A stretch of 32,227 nucleotides of DNA. Source: a virus. The stretch covers positions 1-32,227 of the IMG/VR virus record IMGVR_UViG_3300042914_004845. One strand, written 5' to 3'. Shown here one piece after another: positions 16,798 through 24,992 of this stretch (the first letter of the stretch is position 1; the number at the start of each line of letters is the position of its first letter). A program made the position numbers and the translations under genes. The notes under the pieces are model-generated. The model was not told the DNA's origin. It saw only the letters and a program-made list of their open reading frames with translations, and searched no databases.

Positions 16798-19274
16798 TGG
16801 CTGGAAATAAAACCGAAACCCAAATTGGGTTAAAAATTAATGGCGAAATCGCTGCCAAAACCATCCGTGAATTAGAAAGTGAGGTAAAAAGCCTGAATCG
16901 TGAAATGCGATTGCTGCCGGTGGGCAGCCAGGAATTCGCCGATAAAGCAAAAGAACTTGGAACAGCGACTAACCGGTTAAACGAAGTAAGAAATGCCACC
17001 AGGCAGGTTCGTGAACAAATGGCGCAAGTTGGCGATACGGCGAAAAAAGCCAATGCGGATATACTTGGGATGACTAATACCGGCCGGATGATTCAGGATT
17101 TTGCTACCACATTTACTGCTGTAAGATCGGCGGTAATGGCTAATGTAGCTGCAATGGGTGCATTGCGACTGGCACTGGCTGCAACAGGAATTGGAGCAAT
17201 CATTATTGCATTGACATCATTATACACATGGTTTACAAAAACAGATGAAGGCGCAAAAAAGTTGGAGGGTATCACTACCGGGTTGGGGTTGGCGTTTAAA
17301 GTTATTACCGGGATAGTGGCGCAATTGGGTGAGGCTATTTTTAAGGCATTTGAAAATCCAAAACAGGCATTAATAGACCTTAGTAACTTAATTTTAAACA
17401 ATCTAATCAACCGATTTACAGCATTTGGAATTATTCTCGATGGCATAATTAATGCCGATATGGAAAAAATAACAAACGGAACTGTTCAATTGGGTACTGG
17501 CATTGAGAATGCCACGGTTAAGGTTAAGGAATTTAATAAGGAATTAACTGCTGCGGTGGCCGTTGGTAACGAATTGGCAGAATTAAACGATAAACTGGAT
17601 GAGGATTCGGCAAATAACCTGGTTAAAACGGCGCAGCTGGAACAGCAAATTACCCGGTTAATTCTCCAATCAAAAGATCGGACAAAAACTGAACAGGAAC
17701 GGTTGGCAATTTTGGACAGAGCCAGCGCCCTAGAACGGCAGAAACTAAACCAGGATTTGGCGATTGCGCAGCAAAAAACAAAAATTGCAGAACTGGAATT
17801 TAAGCAAATCGGCGAAAACGATGTTGCATCGGATGAAGCCAGGCGAAAATTTAGAGAGGCACAAGCTGAAGAAATAGCCCTCCGAACCGAATCGATTAAT
17901 CTACAGGAAAAAATAACAAACCGAAGAAATCAATTACTTGATTCAATCGAATCGGAACAGGAAAAATCGCTTGAAAATCAAAGAAAAATGCAGGAAGATG
18001 CCGATAAAGCAGCATTAGATTATTCGCAAAAACTGACAGATTTGAAAATTGCCAACATCAAAGATGAATATGAAAGAAAAGATGCGGAAATTATGGTGGC
18101 ATTTGAAAGAGAACTGGCAAATCTTCAGGCAAATGGCCAATTAACAGCAGAAATCGCTATAGAACTTGAAAAAAAACAGGATGCTGCGTTACTGCAAAAC
18201 CGCATTGATCGGGAAACAGCTGAAGAAGAGCGGAAGAAAAAGAAAAAAGAAGATGAGTTAAAAGCGGCAGAAGAAGAATTATTATTGGAGGAAGAACGGC
18301 AAACTATTGCCGTTGAAAGATTGGTGGCATCAGAAACGATTAAGGAAGAAAAATTATTTCAGGTTAAGCGTGCTGGGCTGGATAGGCGGTTAAAATTATT
18401 GCAGGAACAAGGATTGGGAGAAACAGCTGAAGCCAAAAAAATCGCCATTCAAATTGAAAAATTAGATATTGATCAGGCAAATAAGCGAATCGAATTAGCC
18501 AAGAAAACAAAAATAACCGAAGATCAATTGGCGCAAGCCAGACTGGATTTATTCCGTTCGACAGTTGGTGGCATAAAAGCCGCATTAGCCGAGGATGAAA
18601 CCAACCGCCGCAAATTTTCCGGAATAATTAAAGCATTAACAATCGCAGAAATTGCAATGCAGGGCGTTAAAGAAGTCCAGGGAATTTGGGCAAATGCTAA
18701 TATGAATGCCCTAAATGCACTAATTCCCGGATGGGGGCCAGCGTTTGCGGCGATTCAATCTGCATTCGCAATTACAAGAACTACTTTTGCCGCAACAAAA
18801 GCCGCCGGTATCACTTTTGAAAAAGGGGGGATGATAACGCCAAAGGGTGGATACCTGGCCAATGGTGGCCGACATTCAGAGGGCGGCATCCAATTACTCG
18901 ATGGTCGCACCGGGGCGCACCTGGGCGAGGTGGAACGAGGCGAATTTTTAACCGTGTTCAGCAGAACAGCCTACCAAAATAATAAATCAACAATTGATGC
19001 CCTGCTGAATGCGAGCCTGTACCGAGGCGGTGCGCCGATTGAGGGCAGGAAGTATGCCGATGGGGGGATGATTGATCTTGGCACAAAAGCTGGGGCTGGC
19101 GGAGATTCCGCAGCGGTAAATGTTACGCTGGCCCAGGCGCAGATTGCCGAGATGCGCCGCCTGAACGATGCGTTTACTGCGTTCCCAAAACAATTGTCTG
19201 CGGTGGTGGTTTACGAACAGCAGCAGAAACAGCATCAGGAGGCTGCGAGAATCGAAAGCCGGGCAAACGGATAA
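16797..19274 (+). CDS. Tape measure protein
   Basis: The 825-residue protein sets tail length; at about 0.15 nm per residue it predicts a tail near 120 nm. It has an N-terminal helical region, a hydrophobic stretch at about residues 107-146 (ALRLALAATGIGAIIIALTS) that could enter the host membrane, and a long coiled coil from about 230 to 620 with a charged block (EEERKKKKKEDELKAAEEE near 476-494). The C-terminus is typical of the family: glycine-rich repeats in FEKGGMITPKGGYLANGG, then GEVERGEFLTVFSR. It lies far from the other tail genes (4894-12908), between early and replication operons. That separation is unusual. Confidence 0.9.
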   Translation: MAGNKTETQIGLKINGEIAAKTIRELESEVKSLNREMRLLPVGSQEFADKAKELGTATNRLNEVRNATRQVREQMAQVGDTAKKANADILGMTNTGRMIQDFATTFTAVRSAVMANVAAMGALRLALAATGIGAIIIALTSLYTWFTKTDEGAKKLEGITTGLGLAFKVITGIVAQLGEAIFKAFENPKQALIDLSNLILNNLINRFTAFGIILDGIINADMEKITNGTVQLGTGIENATVKVKEFNKELTAAVAVGNELAELNDKLDEDSANNLVKTAQLEQQITRLILQSKDRTKTEQERLAILDRASALERQKLNQDLAIAQQKTKIAELEFKQIGENDVASDEARRKFREAQAEEIALRTESINLQEKITNRRNQLLDSIESEQEKSLENQRKMQEDADKAALDYSQKLTDLKIANIKDEYERKDAEIMVAFERELANLQANGQLTAEIAIELEKKQDAALLQNRIDRETAEEERKKKKKEDELKAAEEELLLEEERQTIAVERLVASETIKEEKLFQVKRAGLDRRLKLLQEQGLGETAEAKKIAIQIEKLDIDQANKRIELAKKTKITEDQLAQARLDLFRSTVGGIKAALAEDETNRRKFSGIIKALTIAEIAMQGVKEVQGIWANANMNALNALIPGWGPAFAAIQSAFAITRTTFAATKAAGITFEKGGMITPKGGYLANGGRHSEGGIQLLDGRTGAHLGEVERGEFLTVFSRTAYQNNKSTIDALLNASLYRGGAPIEGRKYADGGMIDLGTKAGAGGDSAAVNVTLAQAQIAEMRRLNDAFTAFPKQLSAVVVYEQQQKQHQEAARIESRANG

Positions 19275-23575: not shown

Positions 23576-23856
23576 AGCGAGAAAACATAGGTTTGGCTTT
23601 AGCCATTCAGGACAAACTCCAATACTGCGAAATGTGGATCAAGTTTTTAGAAAATCCGGATAAGCTGGAAATTTTAATTCGGAATCCGGAAGGGCCGGAA
23701 AGCCATAAGCTGTTAAGCATCAAAAAAAATATTGATCCGGTTACCAGTTTGCCACAGGTTTATTCGACCAAATACACCGATGATTTTTTGAAGTGGGCAA
23801 AGCAGTACCTGTTTACTGAACGCCTGATATTGTTAAACGATTTGGAAAATTTATGA
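23572..23856 (+). CDS. Hypothetical protein of the replication operon
   Basis: The 94-residue product starts at an ATGA overlap and contains helices (IGLALAIQDKLQYCEMWIKF and DFLKWAKQYLFTERLILLND) with a strand-rich middle (KLEILIRNPEG, SHKLLSIKKN). It is soluble, with no cysteine pattern and no signal. No family was recognised. It is coupled to the next gene by four bases, supporting an operon. Confidence 0.6.
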   Translation: MKRENIGLALAIQDKLQYCEMWIKFLENPDKLEILIRNPEGPESHKLLSIKKNIDPVTSLPQVYSTKYTDDFLKWAKQYLFTERLILLNDLENL

Positions 23857-24152
23857 GGCGATTTTCTGATTTGGATTTGAAATTGATTGAACGAGAAACC
23901 AAGTTTCACCGATATCACAAACGAATCGTTTATGTTTATTATCGGCAAAATTCAGCACCGTTCAAAAAATATGATAAAATGAAATTTTGGGCGTACACCC
24001 ACATGGAGGAAATCGAAACCCGGCATCGTCTGAAAGATTTGGGGTGGAATTGCTTTTGTCGGCACTGGCGATCACCAAAGAAATCGCCGCCTGAAAATCA
24101 CATTGAAGTCCGGGAAAGCCTGATCCGGCCACCGGTTAAAAAAACAGAATAG
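23853..24152 (+). CDS. Hypothetical basic protein, last of the replication operon
   Basis: The 99-residue product is rich in basic and aromatic residues (RETKFHRYHKRIVYVYYRQN, then KMKFWAYTHMEEIETRHRLK) and includes CFCRHW, a possible metal site. It could bind nucleic acid. No family was recognised. A strong terminator follows 20 bases after the stop. The start overlaps the previous stop by four bases. Confidence 0.6.
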   Translation: MRRFSDLDLKLIERETKFHRYHKRIVYVYYRQNSAPFKKYDKMKFWAYTHMEEIETRHRLKDLGWNCFCRHWRSPKKSPPENHIEVRESLIRPPVKKTE

Positions 24153-24171
24153 AGAACAGGTTTTAAAAATG

Positions 24172-24198
24172 CCGTCCGGTTTCCGGGCGGTTTTTTTT
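24172..24198 (+). terminator. Strong intrinsic terminator ending the replication operon
   Basis: Arms CCGTCCGG (24172-24179) and CCGGGCGG (24183-24190) pair over eight positions with one T-G wobble and a 3-base loop. Eight T residues follow. It is the first of three intrinsic terminators within about 225 bases. Confidence 0.85.
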
Positions 24199-24249
24199 AT
24201 GTTTGCATCATCATATCGCTTCTGTTTTATTTTTTCTGAAGTCAAAAGA

Positions 24250-24273
24250 ACCGGCAGATTTGCCGGTTTTTTT
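24250..24273 (+). terminator. Second intrinsic terminator
   Basis: Perfect arms ACCGGCA (24250-24256) and TGCCGGT (24261-24267) with loop GATT are followed by a run of T residues to 24273. It lies immediately upstream of the GC-rich candidate RNA, which suggests insulation of that unit from upstream transcription. Confidence 0.85.
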
Positions 24274-24290
24274 GCATATTTGAAATAATA

Positions 24291-24397
24291 AGGCTGGCCA
24301 CCGCAATGCGGCAATGGGTTGGCTTTCGATGCCCGACCGCTGATCAGCGAGGGCGAACCTGGGCGCAGGTTTCTCCGGCAGTAATGCCGGATTTTTT
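24291..24397 (+). ncRNA. Candidate small structured RNA ending in its own terminator
   Basis: This stretch is about two thirds G+C in an otherwise A/T-rich genome, and nearly all of it can pair. Visible stems are CCGC-AAT-GCGG (24302-24312), GGTT...GACC around a GGC/GCC hairpin, the 12-base palindrome CGCTGATCAGCG, AACCTG-GGCG-CAGGTT, and the terminator stem TCCGGCA-GTAA-TGCCGGA (24374-24391) with a T run. A CATATTTG box at 24275-24282, one mismatch from TAnnTTTG, would start a transcript near 24289. No known RNA class was recognised. A 37-codon open frame also passes through the region, so a small coding gene cannot be fully excluded. Confidence 0.5.
24374..24397 (+). terminator. Third intrinsic terminator, end of the candidate RNA
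   Basis: Perfect arms TCCGGCA (24374-24380) and TGCCGGA (24385-24391) with loop GTAA are followed by six T residues at 24392-24397. The T run touches the stop codon of the convergent minus-strand gene. On the minus strand there is no T run after the stem, so it acts in the + direction. Confidence 0.8.
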
Positions 24398-24656
24398 ATT
24401 TCTGTTTTATGGCAAATAAATAAACTACAAGTGAGCCGAGTAAATAACCGCAAGCTGTGGCCAGTGCCAGTTTTAATCTGATGTTCCAGTTTTTCGATTC
24501 CACCATAAACCCGGCAAATGGCAAATTCAGGAAAGGTCCGATGAAAGCCATTAAGAGCATTGCGGCCGATTTATCGCTGATTGTGGTAATGTACAGTGTG
24601 CTGGCCATTTCCAAAATAAAAGCAGAAATAAAAATAATCAGGTATTTTTTCATCAT
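24396..24656 (-). CDS. Small membrane protein on the opposite strand
   Basis: The only convincing minus-strand gene encodes 86 residues (ATGATG start; the second ATG would give 85). Segments at about residues 4-20 (YLIIFISAFILEMASTL), 31-50 (AAMLLMAFIGPFLNLPFAGF) and 63-83 (LALATACGYLLGSLVVYLFA) are membrane spans. The sequence style (MKKYLIIFISAFILEMAS, then AFIGPFLNLPF and FMVESKNW) recurs in Bacteroidota phages from memory, always unassigned. It is divergent from the late promoter at 24993 and convergent with the candidate RNA. It could be a superinfection-exclusion or lysis-control protein, but this is only inference. Confidence 0.7.
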   Translation of the reverse strand: MMKKYLIIFISAFILEMASTLYITTISDKSAAMLLMAFIGPFLNLPFAGFMVESKNWNIRLKLALATACGYLLGSLVVYLFAIKQK

Positions 24657-24826
24657 GTAAAGATGTTGATGATTTTTTAGTTGGCTACAAATTGAAGTCA
24701 TCTCAAAACGCAAAATCTTGGAAAAGTACAATTTTATCATTTGCCTAATGCCAAGAAAATGATACAAAAACCTGATTAACTTATAAGTAAAATACCAGCA
24801 AAACCCGGCTTTTTGCCAAAAAAACC

Positions 24827-24951
24827 GTTCCAACCAAGCGTGCAAATAATTGCACAAAGTTGGAAAAGTTGGAACACCCGTTCCAACCGTTATTTTGTTG
24901 ATGCTCTTTGCGTTTGGTCAGGTCGCTAACAAAAGTTGGAACGGTTGGAAC
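24827..24951. repeat. Six 9-bp GTTCCAACC-type repeats, right cluster
   Basis: Direct copies are GTTCCAACC at 24827-24835 and 24880-24888. Inverted copies are AGTTGGAAA at 24858-24866, AGTTGGAAC at 24867-24875, AGTTGGAAC at 24934-24942 and GGTTGGAAC at 24943-24951. Pairs of adjacent inverted copies suggest dimer binding. The nearest copy ends 41 bases upstream of the -33 element of the late promoter, a position suiting an activator. Confidence 0.75.
24840..24855. promoter_or_regulatory. Operator-like dyad GTGCAA-N4-TTGCAC
   Basis: GTGCAAATAATTGCAC has exact 6-base arms separated by ATAA. The arms are the same as in the early-promoter palindrome (12972-12987), and its core is shared with 65-75. 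It lies inside the right repeat cluster and about 150 bases upstream of the late promoter. Confidence 0.6.
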
Positions 24952-24992
24952 GATTTTATGCCATCGAGGGTGAGAGCATCCGGAAATCCAAG

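Follow-up and report, generated by a model that had tools for sequence, protein, structure and literature searches.

RNA-B: a candidate free-standing structured RNA gene at a variable site in probable Bacteroidota phages

Small RNAs carried by phages and prophages are a known kind. DicF is a small RNA of the Qin prophage (PMC10448788) and the Pas sRNAs are encoded by phages and prophages (PMC13192938). A further precedent comes from the Racr RNA anti-CRISPRs, small RNAs that mimic CRISPR repeats (PMC10651486). The entity described here, which we label RNA-B, resembles DicF and the Pas sRNAs in being a short accessory RNA on a phage or prophage genome, and the Racrs in standing alone as a small RNA unit of a phage genome. 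It departs from the former in having no Rfam sequence or covariance match, in belonging to another phylum and in having about two thirds of its bases in pairs; from the latter it differs in consisting of four hairpins. Our data support the view that RNA-B is, very probably, a genuine non-coding RNA: neither a protein gene nor a chance hairpin. We further consider it reasonably likely that it is a free-standing non-coding RNA gene, an accessory cassette in a variable site whose product would regulate in trans or serve as a decoy.

The window, that is, the whole stretch of DNA analyzed, is the 32,227-base IMG/VR virus record IMGVR_UViG_3300042914_004845. It encodes a terminase large subunit, a portal, a major capsid protein and a primase with a BT4734-like N-terminal domain. 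Relatives of the portal and capsid proteins occur in Cellulophaga, Polaribacter, Flavobacterium and Microcystis phages (∼20–33% identity), and the plasmid relatives of the primase are nearly all from Bacteroidota; from these affinities we infer that the host is probably a member of Bacteroidota. RNA-B is carried by three related uncultured phages, in a small group of tailed phages that probably infect this phylum. An upstream operon ends with an ORF at 23853–24152, after which comes its terminator, T1 (24171–24197, plus strand); the next plus-strand genes after the RNA region lead to the capsid genes (from 25132). Between the two, the sequence and terminator scoring define three plus-strand terminators: T1, T2 and T3.

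RNA-B lies on the plus strand at 24287–24397 (∼111 nt including the U run; both ends are predicted). It comprises four hairpins in series, spanning 24290–24391, and a T run that extends to 24397; the last hairpin is an intrinsic terminator. The first element, P1/P2 (24290–24326), is a 10-bp P1 stem with conserved G-U wobbles, topped by a 4-bp P2. It is followed by P3 (24331–24354), which carries a 3x1 internal loop (GAC/A), by P4 (24355–24372), with an invariant core stem of ACCUG/CAGGU, and by T3 (24374–24397), the terminator of RNA-B, with a GUAA loop ahead of the T run and a stem that is invariant in the three known members. The heptamer UUUCGAU (24324–24330), made up of the last three bases of P1 and an unpaired CGAU linker, is identical in all three members and could possibly serve as a pairing seed. 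A multi-hairpin segment that starts after one intrinsic terminator and ends in another is thus present where the original prediction placed it; its description as GC-rich also holds, although the figure given there, two thirds G+C, was too high (60.7%, or 64.4% without the T run, versus 42% for the window).

The segment as first reported has a minimum free energy of −47.2 kcal/mol, and none of 3,212 window segments (108 nt, taken at 20-base steps along both strands) is as stable as RNA-B. Against dinucleotide shuffles its z-score is −2.05; values for the three homologues are −2.4, −2.3 and −2.9. In all three members the RNA-B strand folds better than its complement, by a slight margin in L003. 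Taken by itself the folding z-score is modest: what places RNA-B beyond chance is its conservation with compensatory change.

A search of IMG/VR with the major capsid protein (MCP) identified five records as close relatives and three as distant ones; queries with the downstream ORF (A2) and the upstream ORF (A4) retrieved the identical five close records. Two of these five, which are independent records, contain RNA-B homologues at the same locus (L002:5075–5187 and L003:5079–5191), with covariance-model bit scores of 133–140 for the homologues. The window sequence is 85% identical to either of them over RNA-B, with 47–49% identity in the spacer that follows and roughly 70–77% in flanking aligned stretches.

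Compensatory changes, which the original prediction had named as a check, are present. In P2 the arms CCGC/GCGG of the window become CACC/GGTG in L003 and CATC/GGTG in L002, with pairing intact; the closing pair of P3 is G-C in the window and A-U in L002 and L003; and P1 shows a single G-U to A-U change. Across the three sequences 99 of 99 pair cells hold standard pairs, with three pairs changed on both sides and none broken. When pair partners were slid by one to three columns as a control, standard pairs fell to 23–44% and no compensated pair was found. Since the comparison covers three members and two of these are almost the same, the changes represent few events, and most of P1, P4 and T3 is invariant and so provides no structural evidence. 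The case for a conserved fold with compensatory change is accordingly good but limited. It is because the shape is kept while the letters change that we regard RNA-B as very probably a real non-coding RNA.

Directly upstream of RNA-B lies T2 (24249–24274, plus strand), a stem with a T run that is also scored as a minus-strand terminator, and which is kept in L004 with altered but complementary stem arms. Between T2 and P1 is the promoter-like −7 box that the original prediction had called near-consensus: it reads CATATTTG (24275–24282, plus strand), or CAnnTTTG, one mismatch from the consensus TAnnTTTG, and in L002 and L003 it reads CATTTTTG. In Flavobacterium psychrophilum the TAnnTTTG box occupies −12 to −5 (PMC9723704); on this basis the start of RNA-B is predicted at ∼24287, three bases before P1; the box stands at the expected distance. 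No clear −33 box was found upstream of this start.

A second candidate small RNA may lie immediately upstream. A TAnnTTTG box (24198–24205), right after T1, is kept in six of six phages; it is followed by a core, ATCGCTTCTGTTT, that is invariant in five of the six, and then by T2. From box, core and T2 we predict a plus-strand RNA of ∼65 nt (24210–24274), RNA-A, which would end at T2. Its 5′ part is mostly unpaired, and it is found in more relatives than RNA-B; L004 keeps the RNA-A box and a compensated T2 stem. Further downstream, ahead of the capsid genes, a non-coding stretch at 24819–24990 contains GTTGGAAC/GTTCCAAC in both inverted and direct copies and is kept in all six phages; it is possibly a replication origin, an operator or a packaging site. 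Close to the start of the window, translations (58–512) suggest similar TTCCAACC runs.

Comparison of the close relatives defines the behavior of the RNA-B unit. In L005 and L006, both without RNA-B, T2 runs directly into the common spacer: −7 box, RNA-B and T3 are absent together. In L004 other genes occupy the RNA-B site. Given joint absence on the one hand and replacement by genes on the other, box, RNA and terminator behave as a removable, moron-like RNA cassette. Two of the relatives carry exact terminal repeats (127 bases in G002, the source of L003; 123 bases in G004, the source of L005), and are therefore probably complete, circularly closed assemblies.

Wider searches returned no further members: the family as known consists of the window sequence, L002 and L003, and six of eight related IMG/VR records, some of them fragments, show no RNA-B match. 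At the gathering cut-off no Rfam 15 covariance model matches the window, and all matches within 24100–24700 are far below cut-offs, in line with the initial impression that no known RNA class is represented. Blastn searches of annotated phages and plasmids revealed no relative at that method's sensitivity, and four named phages from the broader group gave no match with a covariance model, R1. A 19-base core motif had no Bacteroidota match among the GTDB genomes searched; three matches in other phyla were set aside, being unlike RNA-B beyond the core. Scans for the motif, using fixed as well as gapped patterns, recovered only L002 and L003, plus matches without a covariance-model score. Five same-length pattern matches proved to be two recurring, protein-coding-looking sequences unlike RNA-B and were likewise rejected.

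What might such a unit do? One special case of the reading we prefer is a counter-defence decoy, in which RNA-B would mimic a host RNA and tie up a defence complex. RNA-B is indeed a solitary, accessory, structured RNA with a promoter-like box and a terminator in a variable site, and solitary phage RNAs have a precedent in the Racrs (PMC10651486); even so, we hold this specific role to be rather improbable.

Less probable still is that the segment is not a gene, and merely a stack of terminator-type hairpins that ends one operon and insulates the capsid operon. The order of the locus invites this reading, with three terminators in a row, and hairpin stacks of this type do occur at operon ends. 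Against it, P1–P4 lack T runs after them, the promoter-like box is present or absent along with the unit, and the linker keeps an invariant sequence.

The free-standing gene has also to be weighed against an antisense RNA controlling the convergent gene. As the original prediction noted, a minus-strand gene meets RNA-B in the window: it encodes an 86-aa putative membrane protein (24396–24656) without a family match, and its stop codon (24396–24398) overlaps the last bases of RNA-B. Since T2 also scores on the minus strand, the minus transcript may extend that far, which would give complementarity over the length of RNA-B. However, the two are convergent in the window phage only. In L002 and L003 (from G001 and G002) RNA-B passes directly into the spacer and the gene is not beside it, whereas the L005 and L006 phages (G004 and G005) have homologues of the gene, elsewhere, upstream and on the plus strand, and no RNA-B; weaker matches occur in G003 and G002. 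Joint conservation of RNA and gene was thus not seen among the close relatives, the gene is not a conserved antisense partner, and the antisense proposal, unsupported in general, is very unlikely. The mobility of the small membrane-protein gene, which shifts both place and strand among close relatives, is an observation in its own right.

A short coding gene is more doubtful again. The 37-codon frame beginning MRQWVGFRCPTADQRG is open in all three members, with no internal indel over RNA-B. Yet seven of the eight codons that differ are non-synonymous, and changes fall on the three codon positions in the numbers 5/3/4, while the neighboring ORFs show a strong third-position bias (14/5/37 and 18/10/69). 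The ends of the frame vary among members, and the changes track base pairing instead. The three members show no purifying selection on the codons, and the coding conservation that would have spoken for a protein was looked for and not seen; that RNA-B encodes one is highly improbable.

The phi29 pRNA is a multi-helix phage RNA of a size roughly like that of RNA-B, and RNAs of its type partner a phi29-type packaging ATPase, which takes the place of an ordinary terminase. Despite the similar size and the several helices, a packaging role of this kind, one sense in which the packaged RNA of the original prediction could be taken, is the least credible alternative, given an ordinary terminase large-subunit gene in the window and the related records that lack RNA-B.

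Candidate targets of RNA-B were considered and set aside. A 9-nt complement between RNA-A and RNA-B in L002 and L003 gives pairing energies within those of shuffled sequences (21, 14 and 76 of 100 shuffles do equally well), and in the window the match has disappeared. A conserved 10-nt complement is located where the tape-measure gene ends (window 19251–19260; orthologous phage sequence), where ATCGAAAGCC complements the GGCUUUCGAU of RNA-B. This site is present only in the three RNA-B-bearing phages; an equally good match arose in 7 of 300 shuffles, and cofolding was strong in G001, weak in G002 and absent in the window. Statistically weak and inconsistent in cofolding, the tape-measure target is not claimed here.

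Returning to the free-standing RNA gene, we envisage the following. RNA-B would be transcribed from its own sigma-A-type promoter, with a start at ∼24287, and its transcript would end at T3, near 24397. Its action would then be in trans, either regulatory or as a decoy. A regulatory RNA is also among the roles named in the original prediction, which placed it late in infection; nothing in our data ties RNA-B to that stage. In the likeliest mode its rigid hairpins would stabilize the molecule and present the invariant UUUCGAU, with its unpaired CGAU, together with the hairpin loops, to host or phage RNA or protein. A bolder proposal is that RNA-B represents a new family of phage RNAs that counter defence or take over the host: an RNA-only moron in which the structure, rather than a pairing seed, is the active part. 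This is a speculative possibility, to which we attach little weight.

As far as we know, small RNAs of Bacteroidota phages have hardly been described. The three members of RNA-B already yield a structure model for use in searches. An RNA gene complete in itself, present or absent at a variable site that holds other genes in related phages, would make a good candidate for an RNA aiding the phage against its host.
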